In this document: positions 12,193-44,123 of the stretch, in pieces
Numbering within the stretch: the stretch's first letter is position 1
Layout of the letters: each line of letters starts with the position of its first letter
Source: Thermodesulfovibrionales bacterium
GTDB lineage: Bacteria > Nitrospirota > Thermodesulfovibrionia > Thermodesulfovibrionales > Dissulfurispiraceae
DNA: 48,481 nucleotides
Direction of reading: 5' to 3'
Assembly (NCBI GenBank): GCA_020062545.1
Contig: JAGUWD010000010.1
Location: 1-48,481 of the forward strand
The notes under the pieces: model-generated
What the model was told of the DNA's origin: nothing
The model's database searches: none
What the model saw: the letters and a program-made list of their open reading frames with translations, nothing else
Translations under genes and position numbers: made by a program

Positions 12193-13287
12193 ATGACAAC
12201 GGACAGTTCGGAGAGGATAAAACAGCTCAATACATTAATAGAATTATCTGCCCTTATTAATTCATCCCTTGATATTGCGGAGATAAGAAAAAAGGCCATA
12301 GAGGCTGCCACGGAGCTCGTAAATGCAGAAGCAGGAAGCCTGCTGTTTTTAGATGAAAAGACAGGTGATCTCTATTTTGATGTGGCCATCGGGGAAAAGG
12401 GGGAAAAGGTCAAGACCATTCGCCTTAAAAAGGGCCAGGGAATTGCAGGTTGGGTCACAGAGCATGATGAGCCTGTGATTATAAATGATGCCCAGAATGA
12501 TCCGAGGTTCTTTAAAGGCGCCGATGAAAAGAGCGGCTTTGTGACCAAAAGCATGATATGCGTGCCTGTAAAAACAAGGGACAAAATTGTCGGAGTGCTT
12601 CAGGCAGTAAATAAAAAGAGCACGTCCTTTGATAATGACGACCTTGATCTGCTGAAAGGCCTTTCCAATCAGGTTGCCATAGCCATAGAAAATGCGAGAT
12701 TGTATGATGAGTTAAGGGAGACATTCTATGCTACAATCCATGCCCTTGCAGAGACTATAGAAAAAAGAGACCCGTACACAGCCGGGCATACAAAGAGGGT
12801 GATGAACTACAGCCTTGCTATTGGAAGGATGATGGGATTTTCAAAAAAAGAGATTGAAAATCTTAAACTTTCTGCTATCCTTCATGATATAGGAAAGATC
12901 GGCATAAGAGACGATGTGCTGCTTAAAAACGATAAATTGACATCAGATGAATTCAAGAAGATAATGATGCATACAGTATACGGCGCAGAGATTCTTAACC
13001 ACATAAGGCAGCTAAAGAGCGTGGTGCCCGGAGTGAAAAACCACCACGAAAAGTATGATGGTTCAGGTTATCCTGATGGCTTAAAAGGTGATGAAATTCC
13101 AGTTATAGCGAGAATCATTGCTGTTACTGATACCTTTGATGCAATGACAACAGACAGGCCTTACAGAAAAGGGCTAAGCTTTGACGAAGCCTTTGAAGAA
13201 TTGAAGAAGATGGCAGGCACTCAGTTCGACCCGAATGTGGTTAATGCATTCTTCAGGGCATACGAAGAAATGGAGATAGCAGTATGA
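12193..13287 (+). CDS. GAF / HD-GYP cyclic-di-GMP phosphodiesterase
   Basis: This cytoplasmic protein of 364 residues has a GAF sensor at about 10-170 and an HD-GYP hydrolase at about 178-362. Metal and catalytic residues are present: H199, H231-D232, H260, H284-H285, D313 and the GYP signature at 292-294 (HHEKYDGSGYPDG). HD-GYP enzymes hydrolyse c-di-GMP, and some act on cGAMP, so activity is expected, though the exact nucleotide cannot be read from sequence. The stop overlaps the next start by four bases (ATGA), coupling it to the metallo-beta-lactamase-fold gene. It sits near the CHASE2 cyclase and the MshEN-type ATPase, so c-di-GMP and cAMP signalling genes are neighbours. Confidence 0.93.
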   Translation: MTTDSSERIKQLNTLIELSALINSSLDIAEIRKKAIEAATELVNAEAGSLLFLDEKTGDLYFDVAIGEKGEKVKTIRLKKGQGIAGWVTEHDEPVIINDAQNDPRFFKGADEKSGFVTKSMICVPVKTRDKIVGVLQAVNKKSTSFDNDDLDLLKGLSNQVAIAIENARLYDELRETFYATIHALAETIEKRDPYTAGHTKRVMNYSLAIGRMMGFSKKEIENLKLSAILHDIGKIGIRDDVLLKNDKLTSDEFKKIMMHTVYGAEILNHIRQLKSVVPGVKNHHEKYDGSGYPDGLKGDEIPVIARIIAVTDTFDAMTTDRPYRKGLSFDEAFEELKKMAGTQFDPNVVNAFFRAYEEMEIAV

Positions 13288-32137: not shown

Positions 32138-32269
32138 TAAGACAGGATATAGTATTTGAGCGGACTTAGGCAGCCCAAGCGTGACATGGATGTCTAAGCG
32201 GGCTGGCTCAGCCTCGCAGAAAGGCTGGATGCCTTTCGAGAATGAGCGAAAATACTATATCCTGTCTTA
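32138..32269 (+). repeat. Structured palindromic element, copy C
   Basis: The terminal inverted repeat 32138-32157/32250-32269 is perfect over 20 bases. The first hairpin is CAGCCC (32171-32176)/GGGCTG (32200-32205), with inner loops AAGCGT and TAAGC and the cap GACA-TGGA-TGTC. The second is GAAAGGC (32119-relative position 32219-32225), loop TGGAT, GCCTTTC (32231-32237), followed by GAGAATGAGCG. It lies between the FlhB-like and glycosylase genes, and both are plus strand. Confidence 0.82.
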
Positions 32270-33893: not shown

Positions 33894-33950
33894 GACAAGA
33901 CATAGTATTTACGCTTGGGCTGCCGAAGTCGCTCCAATACTATACCCTGC
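33894..33950 (-). repeat. Truncated palindromic element, copy D
   Basis: On the minus strand it reads GGTATAGTATT, then GGAGCGACTTCGG and CAGCCCAAGCG, then AATACTAT. The left half matches copies A and C up to the middle of the first hairpin, and the rest up to the closing arm is missing. The terminal stem is retained (TAGTATT/AATACTA). The orientation is opposite to copies A-C. It lies in the gap before the polyferredoxin gene. Confidence 0.7.
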
Positions 33951-33968
33951 CTTTATGCGAGTTCGTTG

Positions 33969-35519
33969 ATGCGGAACATCAGAAGAATTTCTCAGGGGAT
34001 ATTTTTAATCATATTCCTTTTCCTTTTTTTGCAGACAGAATCAAAGGGAAAAGACGATCTCGGCTATCCTGTAAAGATATTTCTTGATTTTGATCCTCTT
34101 ATTTTAACTACTACAATACTCTCAGCGCACGCTGCTGCAAAGGCGTTCTATTTGTCTATTATCACCATAGGCATTACATTAATCTTCGGCAGGGTGTTTT
34201 GCGGATGGGTTTGTCCTTTGGGAACGCTGAATAATATTGTAGGTTCCTTTAAAAAATGGCGCTCCAATGCCATAGGCAGAAACTGGTACAGGGTGAAATA
34301 TTACATCCTGACATTCCTGCTCGTATCATCCGTGTTCTCCCTTCAGCTTGTCGGAATCATGGATCCCATATCGCTTCTCATAAGGTCTCTCTCTGTGAGC
34401 ATCTATCCTCTATTCAATTACAGCACGAGGGCTGTATTTGACAGCATATACAGTTCTGACATTAAAGGCATTGTGAATGTTTCAGAACCCATATATTCTT
34501 TTCTCAAGAAAACCGTGCTCTCTTTTCAGCAGCCTTTTTATGTCCAGAGTGCATTCATCGGCGCTTTATTTCTTCTAATCCTTGGACTGAACCTTGTTGA
34601 GAAGAGATTTTGGTGCAAATATCTCTGTCCGCTTGGAGCATTTCTGGGAATACTTTCAAGAGTTTCGATATTAAAAAGATCCGTGAGCGAAGGATGCACA
34701 TCCTGCGGTGTATGCGCCAATGTATGCCAGGGCAATGCAAACCCTGATAAAAAAGAGGATTGGCGGGATACAGAATGCCTTTACTGCTATAACTGTGATG
34801 ATGTATGTCCTCAGAATGCAGTAATTTTCGGGTTTTCCAAAAAACGGGCTGCAGCAGCAATGGATTTGGGAAGAAGGCGTGTGATTACATCAATGGCATC
34901 AGGCATAATTGCAGTTCCACTTTTAAGGGCGAATCCGCTTTCGAAGTCTGAATTTATAAACCAAAAATTGATCAGACCTCCTGGCTCGCTCGAAGAAAAA
35001 GAATTTCTTAAGAGATGTGTGAAATGCGGGGAATGTATGAAGGTCTGCATTACAAATGGTTTACAGCCAACAATTCTTGAGGCTGGGCTTGAAGGCATAT
35101 GGTCTCCTATTCTTATTCCCAAGATAGGCTATTGCGAATATCGCTGCACACTTTGCGGACAGGTATGCCCAACAGGTGCAATAAAGAGATTGGGAATTGA
35201 GGAAAAGGCGAAGGTTAAGATAGGGCTTGCAACGATTGATAAAGGCAGATGTCTGCCGTGGGCTCACGGCACTCCATGCATAGTATGCGAAGAGGTATGT
35301 CCGACGCCGAAAAAAGCAATATGGTTTGAGAAGGCTGTCGTTAAAGACAGAAGTGGGAAAGAGATTGTTGTCCAGCAGCCTCGTGTTGACCTTGAGCTAT
35401 GCATCGGCTGCGGGATATGCGAGGCAAAATGCCCTGTTGTTGACAGGCCAGCAATCTATGTAACAAGCATCGGAGAATCAAGGTCAAAAGAGAATAAGTT
35501 GTTGATGGAAGGATATTAG
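33969..35519 (+). CDS. NapH/NosR-type membrane polyferredoxin
   Basis: The start is taken at 33969 (MRNIRRISQGIFLIIFLF), since the upstream part of the open frame lies in palindromic element D. Four or five transmembrane segments occupy about residues 10-235, with the paired CGWVCPLGTL and CKYLCPLGAF motifs of the NapH/NosR/RdxA class. After that come at least five cysteine-rich 4Fe-4S motifs (CTSCGVCANVC, CLYCYNCDDVCP, CVKCGECMKVC, CTLCGQVCP, CIGCGICEAKCP). It probably moves electrons between the quinone pool and a periplasmic or cytoplasmic partner, perhaps the adjacent DUF362 protein. The partner oxidoreductase is unknown. Confidence 0.88.
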   Translation: MRNIRRISQGIFLIIFLFLFLQTESKGKDDLGYPVKIFLDFDPLILTTTILSAHAAAKAFYLSIITIGITLIFGRVFCGWVCPLGTLNNIVGSFKKWRSNAIGRNWYRVKYYILTFLLVSSVFSLQLVGIMDPISLLIRSLSVSIYPLFNYSTRAVFDSIYSSDIKGIVNVSEPIYSFLKKTVLSFQQPFYVQSAFIGALFLLILGLNLVEKRFWCKYLCPLGAFLGILSRVSILKRSVSEGCTSCGVCANVCQGNANPDKKEDWRDTECLYCYNCDDVCPQNAVIFGFSKKRAAAAMDLGRRRVITSMASGIIAVPLLRANPLSKSEFINQKLIRPPGSLEEKEFLKRCVKCGECMKVCITNGLQPTILEAGLEGIWSPILIPKIGYCEYRCTLCGQVCPTGAIKRLGIEEKAKVKIGLATIDKGRCLPWAHGTPCIVCEEVCPTPKKAIWFEKAVVKDRSGKEIVVQQPRVDLELCIGCGICEAKCPVVDRPAIYVTSIGESRSKENKLLMEGY

Positions 35520-35535
35520 GGTTCTGGAACAGCGT

Positions 35536-36673
35536 TTATTTTTCCTCTAAATCACTTGCTATTTCTTGAAGCTGAGCCAGCGCACCCTGAAGGTCTTCAA
35601 TTATCTCTCTGGCAATAACATCAGGCTCTGGAAGATTTTCTGATTCTTCAAGGCTTTTGTCTTTAAGCCAGAAGATATCGAGGCTTGCTTTGTCGCGGTT
35701 TATTAGCTCTTCGTAATCAAAAGAACGCCATCTGCCATCTGGATTTTTCTCTGACCACGTTGGTTTTCTATCGTGTCTATTCTCAGGGTTATAGCATTTC
35801 ACAAATTCATCAAGGTCGCTTCGCTTCAAAGGATTAGTCTTAAGCGTGAAATCTTTATTTGTCCTGAAGTCATAAATCCAGAGCTTTTTTGTCCATGGAG
35901 TTTCAGAGGCAGGTTTTTTGTCAAAGAAAATGACATTTGCCTTTACTCCCTAAGCATAAAATAGACCTGTTGGCAGTCTCAATGTGGAGCATAAAATTCA
36001 TGGCACAGAGCCTTGCGGTATTCTGTACAAGCTCCCATCCCCACAACACCTTTTCATCGAGAAATCTCTTTTGGTCTTTCGTCAGCTTGTAATGTTTAGC
36101 TATATATTCATGGCTGGCAATGAGAAAGCCGCCTGTTCCGCATGCCGGATCGCAGATGGTTTCTTTTGGCTTTGGAGCCATAACATCAACTATCGCCTGT
36201 ATTAAAGGACGGGGAGTGAAATACTGGCCTGCGCCTGTTTTCGTGTCCTGCGCATTCTTTTCAAGCAGACCTTCGTAAGCATCGCCCTTCACATCAGCGC
36301 TCATTATTGACCAGTTTTCCTTATCAATCAAATCAACAATAAGCCTGCGGAGCTTTGCAGGGTCTTGAAATTTATTCTGCGCCTTGCCGAAGATTAAGCC
36401 TAAAAGCCCCTTTTCCTGTCCCAGTTTTTCGAGCAGATGGCGGTAGTGGTCAAAGAGGTCATCACCGTCTTTTTTAAGAAGGCTCTGCCAGTTGTATTTA
36501 TCAGGAATAGGACTTGGCTGGTTATACGGCGGTTTTGACCGCTCATCAGCCATCTTAAGAAATAGCAAATACGTAAGCTGCTCCACATAATCGCCATAGC
36601 TCATTCCGTCATCCCTGAGGACATTACAATAATTCCAGAGTTTTTGGACGATTGTTGCGGAACCGTTAGCCAT
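35536..36673 (-). pseudogene. hsdM: Type I restriction-modification methyltransferase, disrupted
   Basis: The N-terminal 228 codons (MANGSATIVQKLWNY to AMNFMLH) are normal HsdM, including SAM motif I DPACGTGGFL. At about 35983 the reading jumps to LRLPTGLFYA, a segment normally about 130 codons further on. The deletion removes the catalytic NPPF/Y motif and shifts the frame. A TAG (35950-35952) also replaces the usual Gln codon in FYAQG. The C-terminal part, from FFDKKPASETPW to SDLEEK, remains readable in another frame to 35536. The product cannot methylate DNA. AGGAG precedes the start. The rest of the RM locus lies 2.5 to 7.3 kb away on the same strand. Confidence 0.93.
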
Positions 36674-36720
36674 CTTAAATGCTCCTAAATTTCCTTATCA
36701 TGTTCAGCTTGACAATAATA

Positions 36721-36825
36721 ACCGCTTATGATAGCTTAAAAACAAGCGGGTAAGTCCTGTTATGTGCCTGATGTGCTCCCTTCCATCGGTTGGCATGAGC
36801 ATCAGGAAGATCGGCATAGCAGGGG
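36721..36825. repeat. REP-like compound palindrome
   Basis: CCGCTT/AAGCGG (36722-36727/36744-36749) is followed by a larger compound hairpin. Its outer arms are CCTGTTATG (36756-36764) and CATAGCAGG (36815-36823). Its inner arms are CCTGATG-TG-CTC (36767-36778) and GAGCATCAGG (36797-36806), with apex CCA/TGG. It is not similar to elements A-D. No protein is supported in the 170-base gap between hsdM and the DUF3800 gene. Confidence 0.6.
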
Positions 36826-36842
36826 CCGCTCTTTTTATTTGT

Positions 36843-37496
36843 TTAACGGAGATATTCCGTCTCATATGCAATTGCGCTCCTATACACATTGTACCACTCA
36901 CTGTCTTCATGCTCATATTTTCTAAAGATACCCCAGCAGAAAAGATCAACAGCCTGAAGCCCTGAATTTTTGTATGAATGTTCGTGATATATATTGAGCG
37001 GAACATTCAAAGGCAAAAGAGCCTCAAGCTGATTTTCGACATAACTGTTGAAGTCCCGAACTTCTTCCTTGTTTTTGCTCAGGTCAAGAATAAGAGTAAC
37101 AGCAGTCCCGGCATTTCGCAAGTCTATTTTTTCAAGAATGAATCTCGCCAGAAAGTTATACAGTTTCTTTTTGACCTTGGGCTTTCTGAGATCTTCAAAA
37201 ACACGTTCTTTGTTCAGGATAATAGTATAAATCTGCCAATTTTTTTTGATAAGATGACGGTAAAAGTATTTTTTTATATCAAGGCTCGTTTTTGCGCCTT
37301 TTAGCTCCTGCACAACACGGCTTCCTTTTTTCTTTCTGTTCAGTTTGTTTTTCAGAGTACGCCGCGCAGCCTTCCTGAAGCTGTCCGTTGCTTCCTTGCC
37401 GTTGCAAACAAGCAGCGTTATTACAAATTTTCTGGATGTCTTCGATTTGCTGAAATCAAATCCAAGATCGCCGGATTCATCAAGAAAGATTATCAC
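36843..37496 (-). CDS. DUF3800 family protein
   Basis: This 217-residue protein is of the DUF3800 type, with N-terminal FLDESGDLGF (acidic residues D6, E7, D10), the central LILDLSKNK, and the C-terminal SGLQAVDLFCWGIFRKYE. The fold is RNase H-like and the acidic residues suggest a metal-dependent nuclease, but its biology is not settled. Many members sit in defence islands, as this one does. The start is GTG with no Shine-Dalgarno sequence. It is divergent from the small gene at 37552 and ends upstream of the REP-like palindrome. Confidence 0.88.
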   Translation of the reverse strand: MIIFLDESGDLGFDFSKSKTSRKFVITLLVCNGKEATDSFRKAARRTLKNKLNRKKKGSRVVQELKGAKTSLDIKKYFYRHLIKKNWQIYTIILNKERVFEDLRKPKVKKKLYNFLARFILEKIDLRNAGTAVTLILDLSKNKEEVRDFNSYVENQLEALLPLNVPLNIYHEHSYKNSGLQAVDLFCWGIFRKYEHEDSEWYNVYRSAIAYETEYLR

Positions 37497-37551
37497 GTTT
37501 TAAATTCCCTGAACTCTCCATAAATAATAAGCTGCTATGATAAAATAAACC

Positions 37552-37752
37552 ATGCCAAAAAAGCCCCTCATAGAAACAAATCCCTACCTCAGAGACCCTG
37601 AGCTTCGCAAATTCTTGATCGAACGGTCTGTCGCATCTTCCTCTGCAATAGAGGGCGTTAAGGTTACGTATCCCAAATTTACTAAAAGACTGCAAAAGAA
37701 AATGCGTGAAGCTGCTGCAGCTGCTCAGAAAGCCCAAGATAAAAACCGTTAG
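37552..37752 (+). CDS. Small SSAIEGV-motif protein
   Basis: The 66-residue basic protein is not named with certainty. It starts MPKKPLIETNPYLRDPELRK, continues with RSVASSSAIEGV (an SSxIEG motif like that in the N-terminal part of some Fic proteins), and ends in an Ala-Lys-Gln-rich helix. It lies 55 bases from the DUF3800 start in divergent orientation, so a regulator or antitoxin role is possible but unproven. A TAAAAT box (37541-37546) ends five bases before the ATG, with no ribosome site. It is the only plus-strand gene in the defence island. Confidence 0.7.
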   Translation: MPKKPLIETNPYLRDPELRKFLIERSVASSSAIEGVKVTYPKFTKRLQKKMREAAAAAQKAQDKNR

Positions 37753-37782
37753 AATATATCTGCCTGATTTTTCATAAATAGC

Positions 37783-38535
37783 TCATCGTCTGCGGTGCTG
37801 CTCTGACCTCACAACTCCCGCATTGTAAAAAAGAATTTTTATATCGCTTAATGTGGAATTCCTTCTCTTAAATTCATCTATGCGGTGTATACCATTTGCA
37901 GTCTTTGAAAAAATAACAAGCACACCTTTAACATTCGGTTGAGAGTTACGATTATGACGCTCGCATAGTAGTTGCATCTTATCAATGTCTTTTTGAAAGC
38001 TCAAAACATGTTTTTGTGAAATCCCGGCAAAGGATCGTACAAACTTCGTTTCGATAGCTATTGCCTGTCCGCCGAATTCAAAGCCCTTGCTTGGAAGTCT
38101 ATAATGTATAGCTCCACTACGCCTCGGATACTCCCCAATCCCATGTAGAATGCTCAGCCTTTGGGGATCAATTATCGAAATATCAGGGCGCAGAGTCAAC
38201 AGACCATTTTCGTCATACCATGGTATTTCAGTATGTAGCGCAATTGCTGTGATATTGTTGTCTAATGTTGGCACTGGTTCTGAATATATTGGGTACAGTT
38301 TTCGATATAAGGCGCACTTCAGGTCATCTTCACTCAGAATTAATCCTTTTATACGATAATAATCGCGCGCGATTACATCAATAGCTCTTTCAACATCGAG
38401 CACAACCTCATCTAATCCGCACTCATGGACTTCAGCAGTTTGCTGACCGTGGTGTTCGCTATGTCTACCAACAATAGAAAAATTATATAGCCTTTTTTTA
38501 GGAATCAACTGGATACTCCATGCACTTAATTTCAC
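37783..38535 (-). CDS. PD-(D/E)XK nuclease-like protein (third gene of cassette)
   Basis: The 250-residue soluble protein has the catalytic pattern of PD-(D/E)XK nucleases: P117-D118 in LRPDISIIDP, then E162-T163-K164 in AIAIETKF on the next strand. An acidic helix SEDDLKCALYRKL (69-81) lies upstream, as in several restriction endonucleases. The C-terminal stretch VKGVLVIFSKT continues the core sheet. No helicase or DNA-binding domain is seen. Its start overlaps the membrane-protein gene by four bases (ATGA). It probably supplies the effector or cleavage activity of the three-gene unit; target unknown. Confidence 0.78.
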   Translation of the reverse strand: MKLSAWSIQLIPKKRLYNFSIVGRHSEHHGQQTAEVHECGLDEVVLDVERAIDVIARDYYRIKGLILSEDDLKCALYRKLYPIYSEPVPTLDNNITAIALHTEIPWYDENGLLTLRPDISIIDPQRLSILHGIGEYPRRSGAIHYRLPSKGFEFGGQAIAIETKFVRSFAGISQKHVLSFQKDIDKMQLLCERHNRNSQPNVKGVLVIFSKTANGIHRIDEFKRRNSTLSDIKILFYNAGVVRSEQHRRR

Positions 38536-38996
38536 TCACCAAGAATCTCTCGAGTGCTCCATTTAGCCAATGCGAGAGAGGCTGTTGTCGTAGCCGCCAC
38601 TGCCCATGCGCCGATAATCAACATTGCCGCCGCAGGAGATTTTCTGTTCAGAACAAGGAGATAGCCTATTAAACTGGCAAAAAGTGCTATCGCACACACT
38701 GCCAATGCGTAAACAACACGATATTTCAAGCGCCAATAGTCTGGCCACTCTAATAGGACTTTTCTCTTGCCTTGCGGGGACAGAATCTCGGTACCCAATT
38801 GATAACATGACACAAGCAATGTTATAGGAATTACGACAACTATACCAACAGCCCATTTATGGTCGGAGTTTAGTAAGGCTAAAGCAAGATTACCCGCACT
38901 TGGCATTGTCTTGTGGATTGCAATGGTCGCTAAGGCAATCAATAGTTCAGGAGATAAGGTCACCATCCTGAGGATATCGGTTAATCTATTCATCAA
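38532..38996 (-). CDS. Four-helix membrane protein (second gene of cassette)
   Basis: The 154-residue protein is not recognised. Hydrophobic segments lie at about 16-36, 47-66, 92-116 and 121-143. A polar cytoplasmic or periplasmic loop between the second and third (GTEILSPQGKRKVLLEWPDYWR) is the longest. No signal peptide cleavage site and no enzymatic motif are seen. Both gene ends overlap neighbours by four bases, which ties its synthesis to the unknown protein upstream and the nuclease downstream. In defence systems such small membrane proteins are often membrane-disrupting effectors or anchors; here that is inference only. Confidence 0.72.
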   Translation of the reverse strand: MMNRLTDILRMVTLSPELLIALATIAIHKTMPSAGNLALALLNSDHKWAVGIVVVIPITLLVSCYQLGTEILSPQGKRKVLLEWPDYWRLKYRVVYALAVCAIALFASLIGYLLVLNRKSPAAAMLIIGAWAVAATTTASLALAKWSTREILGE

Positions 38997-39895
38997 TGCT
39001 CCAGATAACGTTCATCATTTATTCTTTTGAACTCATCATATGTAATCTTTAACAATTCTTCTGGATCAGGTTCTCTCTTAAAAAGAAAACTTCTCTGATT
39101 CTCACTTGTTCGAATTACAATTGTCTTTTTTGACTCTTGCCCCTCAACTTTTGCTCGCCCATAGCCATCTGCAGCCATAAGAACAGCAGCATCACCAATG
39201 CCGCCCATTAATGGTTCCATTAGAGTAGCAATTTTCTCTGCCGAGGAGTTTTCTTCGACTATTTGCTGGGCTATACCTGTAATTGAAGTTTTGATTCCAT
39301 TTTGAGAATCTTCCCTTACAATGACCTCATCAAGTTGCCGCTTTTTTATATAATCTCTCAGTGGTTTCCAACAAGGTCCGAATAGGGGATTAGGTGGCCG
39401 CACTGCTGCGCGTAAAGAAGTAATCGTATCTAACCGTGCCAATCTGGTTACAAAAGTTCTCATATCAGTTACAGGGTCAACTTCACATGAAAGGAAGAAC
39501 CCTTGATGCTTAGCTATCACCAGATCGGCAAATAACCTTGGAAACTGCTCTCTTTGGAGATGATTCCACACATGTTGATATGCTATGCCAGAGAACTCAG
39601 GGATATAAATAAAGGGACTGTAAGCTTCCGTAAGGTTGGCTACATTTTCATCATCTATTTGATGTTCATCTGGACGTACTACTTTTACTGATGCATGAGG
39701 TTTATATTTCGAGAGTCGAGCAAAAATGCCATCTATTTTATTTCGAGAACTAAAGACTTTTATGTTTGTGAAAGTATAGTTATATCTATTTTTTTGAATA
39801 ATGGTCGGTTTAATAATCGCATCAACTAAAAGTTCTTCTGTCAACTTTCCAATCTTTATTACACGTCCCAAATAATATCGTGCATTAGCTCTCAT
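38993..39895 (-). CDS. Protein of unknown function (first gene of cassette)
   Basis: The 300-residue soluble protein is not recognised with confidence; it might belong to the DUF4747-type proteins, but that is a weak guess. It starts MRANARYYLGRVIKIGKLTEE, with AAGGGAGGG upstream. Notable conserved-looking stretches are SPFIYIPEFSGIAYQHVW (92-109), AAVRPPNPLFGPCWKPL (182-198), and a C-terminal Lys- and Glu-rich part. No catalytic motif, membrane segment or signal peptide is visible. It starts 24 bases after hsdS and overlaps the membrane-protein gene by four bases (ATGA), so it leads a tight three-gene unit inside the RM operon. Confidence 0.72.
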   Translation of the reverse strand: MRANARYYLGRVIKIGKLTEELLVDAIIKPTIIQKNRYNYTFTNIKVFSSRNKIDGIFARLSKYKPHASVKVVRPDEHQIDDENVANLTEAYSPFIYIPEFSGIAYQHVWNHLQREQFPRLFADLVIAKHQGFFLSCEVDPVTDMRTFVTRLARLDTITSLRAAVRPPNPLFGPCWKPLRDYIKKRQLDEVIVREDSQNGIKTSITGIAQQIVEENSSAEKIATLMEPLMGGIGDAAVLMAADGYGRAKVEGQESKKTIVIRTSENQRSFLFKREPDPEELLKITYDEFKRINDERYLEH

Positions 39896-39919
39896 AATCC
39901 CTCCCTTGAACTTAACTTA

Positions 39920-40468
39920 TCAAATCAGCCTTCCCGAAAATGCCTTTTTCAAGATCGACTGCCGCAGGCGTTCAGCGCGCTTGAGATTTGTTTCAACAGC
40001 AGATTCGATCTTCTCTGTTACAGATAAAGCTCTCTCAACTTGATTGATAATCTCTTGTTGTTCTTTTAAAGGTGGTAACTGATATGGTGCATTAAGCAGC
40101 GCACCCTGTGTCAGCTTTTTCCGGCCAGTTGTTCCAGTGGTCAGCGGTGTGAAGGGGTAATATGCAAGCGAGTAATTCAAATAATCTATTTCGACTGCCT
40201 TCGTGTTTCGTAAAACATGAGCATGGTTATTCACCCAGGATTTTCCGCTTATCTTATAGCTAAATGGAATTTCACGGCCTGTAAAAGTTTCATCCTCAAC
40301 AACCAGAACAAGTGGCTCATTGTAAATGTAATCATCAATCCAGCCAACCTGTCCATTGGCCCCGTAATAAGGCACTGTACCTTTTCGGCTTGCGCGCTCC
40401 TTTTTATTAATAGGCACTCTCATAGAATCTAAACACTCGGCCACTTGGTCTATCGTTCCCACACCCAC
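39920..40468 (-). pseudogene. hsdS: Type I restriction specificity subunit, 3' half after frameshift
   Basis: This 182-residue frame carries the second target-recognition domain and the C-terminal conserved helix (EKIESAVETNLKRAERLRQSILKKAFSGRL). It has no plausible independent origin, because the normal HsdS chain would read GWVW-GTIDQVAECL across the break. One extra G in the run at 40458-40460 (minus-strand GGG) restores a single 400-residue protein. A GTG at 40468 could still start translation of this half alone. The frames overlap by 19 bases. Confidence 0.85.
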
Positions 40469-41169
40469 CCCTTCGGCAATTCAGGCAGATTAGAGGTGTC
40501 AGGCGCGGCAGGCTCTTTGTATTTCTTGCCCGGATTCTTTTCTTCCCATTTCTTTTTCCTCTCGGCAAGAATTCTTTTGAGAAGTTTTTCGGCAGGTTCT
40601 ACGTCAGTATTTTGTGTTCTCCACTCCTCTGTCAATCTCCCCTCAACCGCAGCCTTGAGCACAGAGGCTTTGTAGCGTTTAAGATTTGTCTTTATTCTCT
40701 TCAGTGCAGCCACCGCCTCATCAAGACGGGAGAATTGTTTTTCAATTTCAGAGACGATGAGTTTTTGTTCGGCACGTGGGATAAGAGGTACATTGTTTTT
40801 TTTCAAAAATTGAAAATGCCTACTATATCCTCGACTCGGAATATCTAAAGTATAAAGCATGTAATAAAAAAACTTTGGTTCATAAGAAGGTTCAGGCTTT
40901 AATATTTTTACGCCTTCAGCGCCAACTGCAAAAGGCCGTGTTACAAATTTGATATTTCTTGTATGGTCACCAAAAATAATAACTGGCAATTCACCTTTGA
41001 AGACCATGTCTTCATCATTTATATAGCCACCAATAAACTCTTGCCCCTGATCTATTACAGGCACTTTCCCTTCAGGCAAGTAATCTCTCTGCTTGACTCG
41101 TTTCCCCTCATCCGATATAACCTTAGCAGCCTTGATAAAAAGAATGTATTGCCAGCTCGTATTACTCAC
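40450..41169 (-). pseudogene. hsdS: Type I restriction specificity subunit, 5' half before frameshift
   Basis: This 239-residue frame contains the first target-recognition domain (YLPEGKVPVIDQGQEFIGGY, then GDHTRNIKFVTRPFAVGAEG), the central conserved helix EAVAALKRIKTNLKRYKASVLKAAVEGRL, and the linker ending ELPKGWVWER before a premature TAG. HsdS supplies DNA sequence recognition to the whole complex. Its GTG start overlaps the hsdR stop by four bases. Single-base change in the G run could be an assembly error, a fixed mutation or a phase-variable switch. Split half-subunits can still work as dimers in some systems. Confidence 0.85.
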
Positions 41170-43982
41170 GCCGCCAGCACCTCATTTAACTCATCCATCA
41201 TCTTCCACAGCCCCTCGCCAAAAAGCTGATACGCCTTACCAAGCCCACCGTTTTCTTTAAAGGGAGTGTATTCAAAATCTTTCTTATCTATGCTCAGGCT
41301 TCCGATGATATGCTCTTTTATCTTATTAAGCCAGAACATCTGCTCTTCGCTGAATTTCTTGCCTGCCTTTTCCTGCTCAGCAAGCCATTTATTAAACCGG
41401 GTTTCAACATGCTCTGAATATGGCTCAAGCTCATCCTCCTGATGAAGGGCAAAACGGATCAATGAAACGAGGTCAGTCAATATCCTGTGGCTTCCCGCAC
41501 CACGAACCCTTGATTTCTCCAAAGCAGCATATGCATCCCATAGCCTGTCAATGCGCCATAGATATGGAGGCCTTTCTATAAGCTCTGATAGAGCCTTTAC
41601 CTCTTCAAAGCGCAACCTCTCTTTGTACGGCCTGCTGTAAAGTATCTGGAGGGCTGTTATCTCGTCCTTATGCTCTTTGATGAACTGTTCAAATGAAGTA
41701 ACAAGACCTTTTGCCTTTTCCATGGCATCTGCGCTGAATCCTGCCTCTATCACTGCATCCTTGCTGATTGCATCAATCGTCTGCTCCGTTGTTTTATACA
41801 GATCAACAAGCCTTCTTCTTAGCTCAGGAATATGAAAAGGTTTTACAGATTCTTTAATTATCTTTTCAGCAGCCTTTTTTATCTGGTCTGCTGAAGGCTC
41901 TTTAATTTCGGGGTTATCTTTCTTTGCAAGCTCGATATGCTTATCAGGATCAATCGCAAGGACAAGCTCGCCTGTTAATTCCTTTAAGTTTTTCCCTGCA
42001 GCAAGTTTCTTAATCTCTGCCCTTTCCTCTGCGTTCAGTTTCTTATCAAGGCGGGCAAGACGGCCTGCTATAGACGATATGACATCCGTCTCTGTATTTC
42101 CTAATGCAACTGCCTGAAGGAGTTTTTCCAATGATACGCTCGGTTTTCTTTCCATCGGCCTTGAGTCAGTCTTATCCTCTTCGCATACACCGACAGCATC
42201 TATAATCACGAAATGGGTCTTTGCAAAGGCATCAGGAGTGACTGATTGAAGGTCATTCGGATTTATTACACGCACGCCCCTGCCTTTCATCTGGTCAAAG
42301 TAAGAGCGTGATTTTACTGTGCGAAGGAAGAAGACTATTTCAAGAGGCTTGATGTCTGTTCCTGTAGCAATCATATCAACCGTAACAGCTATGCGAGGGA
42401 AATAGCTGTTTCTGAACTCGGCTATAAGGTCTTCCGGCTTTTTGCCTGTTGTCTTGTATGTTATCTTCTGGCAGAATTCATTCCCTTTCCCGAATTCTTC
42501 CCTGACAATCTTTACAATGTCTTCAGCGTGGGAGTCATCCTTTGCATAAATGAGTGTTTTAGGGACATCTTTTCTTCCCGGAAATATCTCTGTAAATAGC
42601 TTATCGCGAAATGTCTGTATAACAGTCCTTATCTGGTCAACAGCAACAACATCTCTGTCCAACTGCTCAGGGGCATATTTAAGATCTTCATCCAACCTTT
42701 CCCATCTGAGCACCCTTGTTTCTCTGTCACGCTTGTCAATGTAATAGCCTGCCTCTACCATTGAGCCTTTTTGAGTTATCTCTGTCCTGATCCGATAGAC
42801 ATCATAATTCACATCCACTCCGTCTGCAACTGCTTGTTCATGCGGATATTCCATCACGAGGTTTTGGTTGAAAAAACCGAAGGTCTGCTTGTTTGGAGTT
42901 GCTGTAAGCCCAATGATAAAGGCATCGAAATACTCAAGCACCTGCCTCCAGAGATTGTATATGGAGCGGTGGCATTCATCGGTTATTATCACATCAAAGG
43001 TTTCTATTGGAATGGCCGGGTTATATTCAACAGGCACAGGCTCTTTATAAAGGTCTGCGTGGTCGAATAAAGATTCTTCCTCAAGCTCAGGGTCTATCTC
43101 CTCGCCTTTGAGCATTGAATATAGTCTCTGGATTGTAGAAATACAGACACGGGCTGTCTTATCTAACTGGTTAGATTTCATATGTTGAACAAGAAATTCT
43201 TCAGTAAATTTGTAAGGGCTGTACGGAGAGTCGTATTGTTTGAATTCCTTGAGCGTTTGCCTTCCGAGGTTCGCGCGGTCAACAAGAAACAGAATCCTTT
43301 TTGCGCCTGCAAACTTGATCATCCTGTAAATGGCTGTTACAGCAGTGAATGTCTTGCCGCTTCCTGTTGCCATCTGGATGAGTGCGCGAGGTCTGTTTTC
43401 AGCAAGGGATTTCTCGAGGTTTTTAATTGCCTTTATCTGGGCAGGCCAGAGACCTTCTTCTTTTAATGGAGGCATGTTTCTGAGTCTTAAAAGGAGGGTT
43501 GAGGGAGCGCCGTATACTGCTTGCTCCTCGGCTGCGCGGTCTAAATCAACGTGCCTTTCATCCTTCAACCACGCCACAAGGGTCTCAGGATGGTGGAAGG
43601 AAAAGACACGGCGCGAGCAAGCGTCAGGATCAAGGTAATTAGTGAACCGCGTTTCGACGCCAGTTGATTCATAGCAGAAGGGCAAAGGCCGATACCAGGC
43701 AGGGAGAATATCTGGAAGACCGTTCTTGTATTTATCCGACTGGATCTCGACGCCTGTGAGAGTTGTTCCTTCTTTTTTCGCCTCTATGATGCCGGCTGCC
43801 CTGCCTTCGATGTAGAAGAGATAGTCGGCTGTTCCGTGGCATGGCTTTAAAGGAAAGTTTCTGATGACGACGCCGGTTCCGGCGCGAATGTTGGCGTTCT
43901 TATAATCACAGACATGCCAGCCGGCCTGCTCCAGCATCCTGTCTATCTGTTCTCGCGCTTTGTCCTCAGGAGTTGGACTCAT
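41166..43982 (-). CDS. hsdR: Type I restriction enzyme, R subunit
   Basis: This ATP-dependent translocase and nuclease subunit has 938 residues. The N-terminal nuclease domain has D53 (GTADYLFYIEG) and E67-A-K69 (IIEAKK). The SF2 helicase region follows: Walker A QMATGSGKT (203-211), DEAD-box variant ITDECHRS, motif III LTATP, and motif VI region QMKGRGVRV. The C-terminal helical domain extends to the end and is typical of EcoEI-like HsdR. It appears intact, but with hsdM destroyed no active R2M2S complex is expected. It heads the minus-strand order hsdR, hsdS, cassette, DUF3800, hsdM. Confidence 0.95.
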   Translation of the reverse strand: MSPTPEDKAREQIDRMLEQAGWHVCDYKNANIRAGTGVVIRNFPLKPCHGTADYLFYIEGRAAGIIEAKKEGTTLTGVEIQSDKYKNGLPDILPAWYRPLPFCYESTGVETRFTNYLDPDACSRRVFSFHHPETLVAWLKDERHVDLDRAAEEQAVYGAPSTLLLRLRNMPPLKEEGLWPAQIKAIKNLEKSLAENRPRALIQMATGSGKTFTAVTAIYRMIKFAGAKRILFLVDRANLGRQTLKEFKQYDSPYSPYKFTEEFLVQHMKSNQLDKTARVCISTIQRLYSMLKGEEIDPELEEESLFDHADLYKEPVPVEYNPAIPIETFDVIITDECHRSIYNLWRQVLEYFDAFIIGLTATPNKQTFGFFNQNLVMEYPHEQAVADGVDVNYDVYRIRTEITQKGSMVEAGYYIDKRDRETRVLRWERLDEDLKYAPEQLDRDVVAVDQIRTVIQTFRDKLFTEIFPGRKDVPKTLIYAKDDSHAEDIVKIVREEFGKGNEFCQKITYKTTGKKPEDLIAEFRNSYFPRIAVTVDMIATGTDIKPLEIVFFLRTVKSRSYFDQMKGRGVRVINPNDLQSVTPDAFAKTHFVIIDAVGVCEEDKTDSRPMERKPSVSLEKLLQAVALGNTETDVISSIAGRLARLDKKLNAEERAEIKKLAAGKNLKELTGELVLAIDPDKHIELAKKDNPEIKEPSADQIKKAAEKIIKESVKPFHIPELRRRLVDLYKTTEQTIDAISKDAVIEAGFSADAMEKAKGLVTSFEQFIKEHKDEITALQILYSRPYKERLRFEEVKALSELIERPPYLWRIDRLWDAYAALEKSRVRGAGSHRILTDLVSLIRFALHQEDELEPYSEHVETRFNKWLAEQEKAGKKFSEEQMFWLNKIKEHIIGSLSIDKKDFEYTPFKENGGLGKAYQLFGEGLWKMMDELNEVLAA

Positions 43983-44049
43983 AAATCTAATTATATAAGA
44001 ACAGATAGATTTTTGAAACGGTTTTAAAATTATTGGCGAAGATTTTTAA

Positions 44050-44123
44050 TGGCGGTGCAGGGATTTGAACCCCGGACACTGCGGATATGAGCCGCATGCT
44101 CTGACCAACTGAGCTACACCGCC
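44050..44123 (-). tRNA. tRNA with anticodon CAT (Met or Ile2)
   Basis: Minus-strand acceptor GGCGGTG pairs with CACCGCC, discriminator A. The anticodon stem TGCGG/CCGCA holds the loop CTCATAT, so the anticodon is CAT, and the T loop TTCAAAT is normal. Elongator Met and lysidine-modified Ile2 cannot be separated here. Unlike the four tRNAs at the start of the window, no CCA is encoded. It flanks the defence island. Confidence 0.92.

Follow-up and report, generated by a model that had tools for sequence, protein, structure and literature searches.

A type I restriction–modification island at tRNA-Met with lesions in hsdM and hsdS and a cargo gene pair that probably works like RexAB

In lambda, RexA is a soluble protein of the RexA/RdgC/Iml3 fold that is followed by the small four-helix membrane protein RexB, and the paper on the RexA structure reports RdgC, Iml3 and CENP-N as its relatives (PMC11077077). 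RexABpp of Pseudomonas putida is a prophage-borne two-gene defence of the RexAB type, with a four-helix effector and a RexA-like trigger, and the 2026 paper describing it counts five RexAB-like systems (PMC12894663). Genes intervening in type I restriction–modification (RM) loci are represented by rlo/mlo of Campylobacter jejuni (cited in PMC5183652). Insertion with long target duplication has been described for RM genes by the Kobayashi group (PMC3031569).

The locus analysed here lies in a window of 48,481 nucleotides, the whole stretch of DNA under study, and is likely to be a horizontally acquired hsd island at tRNA-Met that was recently inactivated and whose cargo slot holds a RexAB-like exclusion module, c300–c154. 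This gene pair resembles lambda RexA/RexB in gene order, sizes and overlapping or adjacent arrangement, with c154 having the length and layout of RexB, but differs from it in the lack of sequence similarity, in having no adjoining prophage repressor gene and in lying often inside hsd loci. Compared by description, RexABpp has the same layout, yet is prophage-borne (PMC12894663). The rlo/mlo genes (PMC5183652) are likewise additional ORFs situated between the hsdS and hsdM of a variable hsd locus, whereas the present cases come from Nitrospirota and relatives, the slot often contains truncated 5′ hsdM copies, and the copy in the window is without hsdM and hsdS function. Long target duplication also leaves partial copies of its target gene, long and variable, on either side of the inserted DNA (PMC3031569); here, however, it is cargo that is inserted and the 5′ end of hsdM that is targeted, and homology-facilitated illegitimate recombination explains the hsdM copies equally well. 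The main value of the locus resides in the cargo pair and in a slot with hsdM scars rather than in the dead hsdM.

The island and the state of its hsd genes

The features of the island other than its cargo are as follows.

35520–44049, no strand assigned: whole hsd island, 8.5 kb, missing from this site in congeneric genomes
44050–44123, minus strand: tRNA-Met(CAT), found with ARAGORN, its 3′ end abutting the right edge of the island
41166–43982, minus strand: hsdR, full length, 938 aa (Pfam ResIII, EcoEI_R_C, HSDR_N)
40450–41169, minus strand: hsdS 5′ half, first target recognition domain (PADLOC Specificity_I, 2.6e-48)
39920–40468, minus strand: hsdS 3′ half, second target recognition domain (Pfam Methylase_S, 3.7e-11)
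36673–35536, minus strand: hsdM, broken (open-frame reading and alignment to the intact hsdM of relatives)
35984–36673, minus strand: hsdM 5′ fragment, codons 1–230, with HsdM_N and motif I DPACGTGGF (Pfam, alignment)
35982–35983, minus strand: hsdM deletion junction, with 344 nt (~115 codons, NPPF region) absent (alignment to intact relatives)
35950–35952, minus strand: TAG inside the hsdM 3′ fragment, in the frame of that piece; Gln in intact relatives
35536–35981, minus strand: hsdM 3′ fragment (N6_Mtase profile 210–279, one TAG)

The insertion site was found empty in two genomes of the same genus. In G001, the flanks matching window positions 35516 and 44046 are only 4 nt apart (L159 7467|7471), and in G002 those matching 35534 and 44206 are ~100 nt apart, so the 8.5 kb have been inserted cleanly. 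No integrase was seen within it. The related hsd locus of G024, a relative from the same family whose 494-aa open frame served as the main hsdM reference, sits at a different place, adjoining a gyrA-like gene. We propose that a type I RM island of the order hsdR–hsdS–cargo–hsdM was acquired horizontally, into the 3′ end of tRNA-Met, and that its inactivation was very recent, hsdM being lost through a nonsense codon and a deletion that shifts the frame, and hsdS through a frameshift. Elsewhere in the window, dispersed repeats of ~45–85 bp that are 78–89% alike (1967–2049, 32163–32245, 33911–33953, 2594–2644 and 12565–12615) are possibly a small mobile repeat.

The hsdM 5′ fragment, whose open frame continues to 35921, is 97% identical in amino acids to the intact G024 HsdM over the first 230 residues and matches Pfam HsdM_N (7.6e-15), with N6_Mtase matched at profile positions 2–104 only; the 3′ fragment is 89% identical to G024 over 137 aa. 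Between the two, at 35983|35982, a 344-nt deletion has removed LTNPPFG and shifted the frame, and the TAG further on takes the place of a Gln that is present in the intact relatives examined (GLFYAQGVK), so that no single open frame combines SAM motif I with NPPF/Y. The original prediction had placed the loss of the NPPF/Y motif, with a shift of frame, at 35983, which the alignment to intact relatives bears out, and had located the TAG exactly; comparison with the intact locus in G024 and others, which it had suggested, reveals both the deletion and the change from Gln to TAG. Its estimate of ~130 codons for the internal deletion was right in position and too large in size (~115 codons, 344 nt), and of the catalytic core that it held to be lost, the NPPF region is indeed gone, whereas the SAM-binding motif I DPACGTGGF is still present.

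In three other Nitrospirota (G345, G137 and G151), too, hsdM has a core deletion that breaks its frame, and the lesion in the window is thus one among several. A 48-codon hsdM in G242 was rejected as a parallel loss, since an insertion may have left it behind while the true hsdM lies past the contig end; a further hsdM copy was sought in that genome and not found. The loss of hsdM is ordinary gene decay in a mobile type I locus, and recent.

A lesion that the original prediction did not contain, added by the present analysis, affects hsdS, which is frameshifted by a one-base indel after GWVWER (40450–40456, near 40453), causing the 5′ half to stop at TAG 40452–40450. Relatives with the same recognition domain have GW.W.R(L)GEV.E.LDS.R.P uninterrupted at this break point. 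Each half retains one recognition domain and the halves overlap at 40450–40468, with the frameshift precluding an HsdS with both domains in one frame. In agreement with the prediction that it is intact, hsdR encodes 938 aa with the nuclease and translocase domains (HSDR_N, ResIII, EcoEI_R_C) and is 89.6% identical to G024 across residues 1–938.

Complementation by another hsdM, which had been raised as a possibility, was sought in the whole assembly (2.62 Mb in 47 contigs, 100% complete as listed): no second gene of the HsdM_N type was found in it, HsdM_N occurring at this locus only. The other N6_Mtase matches were rejected as a replacement HsdM, as they are type-II-like enzymes of 718 to 1067 aa or PrmC-like. 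The sole other hsdS of the assembly is a 392-aa orphan (contig C45:65449–66627; L134 7451–8629) with no hsdM or hsdR nearby and with acetyl-CoA-pathway-like genes as neighbours. With hsdM and hsdS both broken and no second HsdM_N gene, the type I complex of the window should be inactive, as predicted, and the host would be expected to be restriction-negative.

Cargo between hsdS and hsdM

The slot between the broken hsdS and hsdM contains the following genes.

38993–39895, minus strand: c300, putative RexA-like protein, 300 aa (AF2, Foldseek/VIA, 26-member alignment)
38532–38996, minus strand: c154, putative RexB-like membrane protein, 154 aa (hydropathy, AF2, conserved partner of c300)
37783–38535, minus strand: c250, 250 aa, PD-(D/E)xK-like pattern RPDI...IETK (no Pfam family)
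37552–37752, plus strand: antisense ORF of 66 aa (tblastn; no Pfam family)
36843–37496, minus strand: DUF3800 protein, cargo (Pfam PF12686, 7.7e-16)

The start codon of c250 overlaps the end of c154, and c300, c154 and c250 form a run of three overlapping genes. The (R/K)PDI...E(T/L)K pattern of c250 is conserved in its relatives in G144 and G388 (KPDI...IELK and RPDI...VELK), and by this motif only c250 would be a PD-(D/E)xK-type nuclease-like protein. A DUF3800 gene also stands just before hsdM in G096 (62%). The small antisense ORF (MPKKPLIETNPYLRDPELRK...) recurs by the hsdM start, just upstream of it, in several relatives (e.g. L029 5183–4989 and L045 9610–9503), often near Fic genes.

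The order hsdR–hsdS–(variable)–hsdM is common to the relatives and the cargo differs between them, consisting of DUF6880 and Fic genes in G024, DUF3800 in G096, and Abi-like and Fic genes in G047; within this hsd family, the hsdS–hsdM gap repeatedly serves as a slot for cargo. The slot was surveyed by querying 395 Nitrospirota genomes with HsdM residues 1–70, and 95 of them gave a match. About 20 genomes, single-contig ones included, have at least one short extra 5′ piece of hsdM just upstream of the full hsdM. When 26 loci were compared with the full-length gene, 28 of 29 upstream extra pieces were same-strand 5′ pieces, mostly starting near codons 1–10 and ending at codon 17 to ~125, and only one extra piece, a weak one, lay downstream; since a 5′ query had served to pick most of these loci, the bias towards 5′ pieces is in part a product of the selection, and the frequency should not be read as an estimate. 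Truncated 5′ copies that lie on the same strand and separate cargo between hsdS and the full hsdM were observed in L110–L126, L081 (9349–10848) and L032 (112–169). A lone 61-aa 5′ piece of hsdM was also observed in G040 (L046 8619–8804), between mutL and miaA and far from hsdR and hsdS.

This arrangement most likely arose as cargo inserted repeatedly at the hsdM start and left a truncated copy behind; the mechanism could be either long target duplication on insertion or illegitimate joining for which hsdM homology provides the anchor. Such copies, as a signature of repeated insertion, suggest how type I operons collect defence cargo. The slot of the window was considered as a further example marked by a truncated 5′ hsdM copy and rejected, none having been detected in it.

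The c300–c154 gene pair

No match for c300 was obtained in Pfam, PADLOC, NCBIfam or PDB sequences, nor a convincing one in PHROGs, and nothing was found with c300 as a single-protein query of genome contigs. Among 84,980 species, searching with a profile returned 31 loci, spanning Proteobacteria, Nitrospira, Verrucomicrobia, Campylobacterota and others. A c154-like gene was found as an ORF directly downstream of c300 in 28 of 30 loci, usually with overlapping stop and start, and by tblastn in the remaining two where the locus was long enough, so that the partner is present in every c300 locus complete enough to judge. The pair c300–c154 is a conserved and undescribed two-gene module with ~30 loci over several phyla, as compared with the five RexAB-like systems described (PMC12894663), and often within type I operons. 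It follows hsdS directly in 8 of 32 loci (the window, L079, L080, L081, L083, L084, L085 and L105). Since the cassette is followed by a full-length hsdM in L081 and L084 and by an hsdM that is open to the sequence end in L080 and L085, cassette and live RM coexist. Outside hsd loci, its defence-like neighbours include an OLD-type ATPase/TOPRIM, a DNA methylase, a reverse transcriptase and DUF4917. A three-gene unit of ParA, c300 and c154 was rejected, ParA having been met once only.

The AF2 model of c300 (pLDDT 84, pTM 0.83) had RdgC as its top Foldseek match (probability 0.94, E 2e-3), and VIA returned CENP-N (Z 6.5), Iml3 (6.4), lambda RexA (6.1) and RdgC (5.2), all below Z 8. The match to lambda RexA covers 137 residues at 3.7 Å, with a Z-score below the level for a stand-alone match. 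Each score is weak alone, but together the matches make up the relatives reported for lambda RexA (PMC11077077), and c300 is predicted to have the fold of the RexA/RdgC/Iml3/CENP-N group. Five uncharacterised phage proteins of ~280–320 aa in BFVD (A0A8S5S8L2, A0A8S5QGP5, A0A8S5PCY0, A0A8S5MSR5 and A0A6J5Q1Z2) match the c300 fold more strongly, with probability 1.00, and may be phage-borne RexA-like proteins. By sequence, close phage-borne relatives of c300 were found neither in IMG/VR nor in INPHARED. The partner directly downstream is a small membrane protein with four transmembrane helices: c154 has hydrophobic segments at 8–26, 49–67, 98–116 and 125–143, compared with 8–26, 48–66, 84–102 and 116–134 in lambda RexB, and AF2 gives a confident four-helix model (pLDDT 93.6).

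At the level of sequence, none of the 26 c300 members matched the RexA family PF15969, to which lambda RexA itself scores 1e-97, and hhalign of c300 against that family gave a probability of 0.3%. Three c154 members were likewise without a match to the RexB family PF15968, hhalign of c154 with RexB gave 0.6%, and the c154 structure retrieved nothing significant against RexB in BFVD. This absence of detectable similarity, together with the fact that structural Z-scores of ~6 can reflect common arrangements, leaves a modest but appreciable chance that c300–c154 is an unrelated two-gene system (e.g. a toxin–antitoxin or transporter pair) sharing just helices and a beta-rich fold. Against this, the top VIA matches of c300 constitute one fold group that is tied to RexA in print, and gene order, sizes and four-helix topology agree with RexAB. 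On these models, c300–c154 probably works like RexAB and is not placed in the RexA and RexB sequence families.

The cargo of the window slot would on this reading comprise a RexAB-like module, with c300 as the sensor and c154 as the membrane effector, along with the nuclease-like gene and the DUF3800 gene. As a protein with a DNA-binding fold, c300 would sense phage DNA or protein–DNA complexes and trigger c154, a putative four-helix inner-membrane protein, which would depolarise the cell and so abort the infection without need of the dead restriction enzyme; phage exclusion would then be independent of HsdRMS. It is unlikely that the pair represents a widespread undescribed chromosomal RexAB-like branch that settles repeatedly right behind hsdS owing to a joint action with the restriction enzyme; if it did, it might, for example, act as a suicide backup set off by a failure of restriction, by HsdR-translocated DNA or by methylase loss. 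A distant relative of c300 (23%) was also observed on a Picosynechococcus plasmid (NZ_CP016488; L036 5970–7369), followed by a 177-aa hydrophobic protein, the two adjoining dndD/dndE genes.

Age of the loss and rival explanations

Between the window and G024, the 5′ piece of hsdM has a dS of 0.9 and a dN of 0.018 (dN/dS 0.02), and comparison to three outgroups assigns 0 derived amino-acid changes to the window lineage against 9 derived synonymous codons. This pattern indicates that hsdM was under full constraint until very recently and that its inactivation is very recent, in which case too little time would have passed for neighbouring genes to decay, and open cargo frames carry no information on selection. 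The original prediction had taken the undamaged cassette genes as a sign of selection on them rather than on the RM system; on that view, an old dead system would be kept for its cargo. All cargo frames of the window are indeed open and all three lesions fall in hsdM and hsdS, but the hsdM fragments display no relaxed constraint, and with just three lesions in all the open frames are weak evidence. Moreover, the same c300–c154 adjoins a lesion-free hsdM in L080, L081, L084 and L085 (in L080 and L085 to ~codon 385 only), so the cassette is not tied to the loss of hsdM, and the cassette as the cause of that loss was rejected on the same grounds. The argument from selection on the cargo is thus not borne out, and such an old system is highly improbable. 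For the cassette itself, the nearest relative is only 52% identical, and synonymous sites would therefore be saturated for dN/dS.

The constraint on the hsdM fragments is also the pattern expected of an intact gene, the hsdS lesion is a single-base indel, and the lesions are known from the assembly alone, all of which would suit an assembly or consensus artefact with hsdM and/or hsdS really intact in the organism. We consider this quite unlikely, given three independent lesions across two hsd genes, one of them a deletion of 344 nt whose junction is clean and another a nonsense substitution, in a contig that is otherwise coherent and in which hsdR is read through at full length, and given that hsdM of G345, G137 and G151 has core deletions of its own. 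In some type I systems, half-HsdS proteins are able to dimerise, and the GTG start of the hsdS 3′ half overlaps the 5′ half at its end, both of which favour a programmed or reversible inactivation by phase variation, recoding or split yet functional M and S subunits. This is extremely improbable, however, because the deleted catalytic DNA was not found elsewhere in the genome, the hsdS break shows no repeat tract, and two separate stops in hsdM rule out simple recoding. Three lesions, including an exact deletion junction, are no chance reading.
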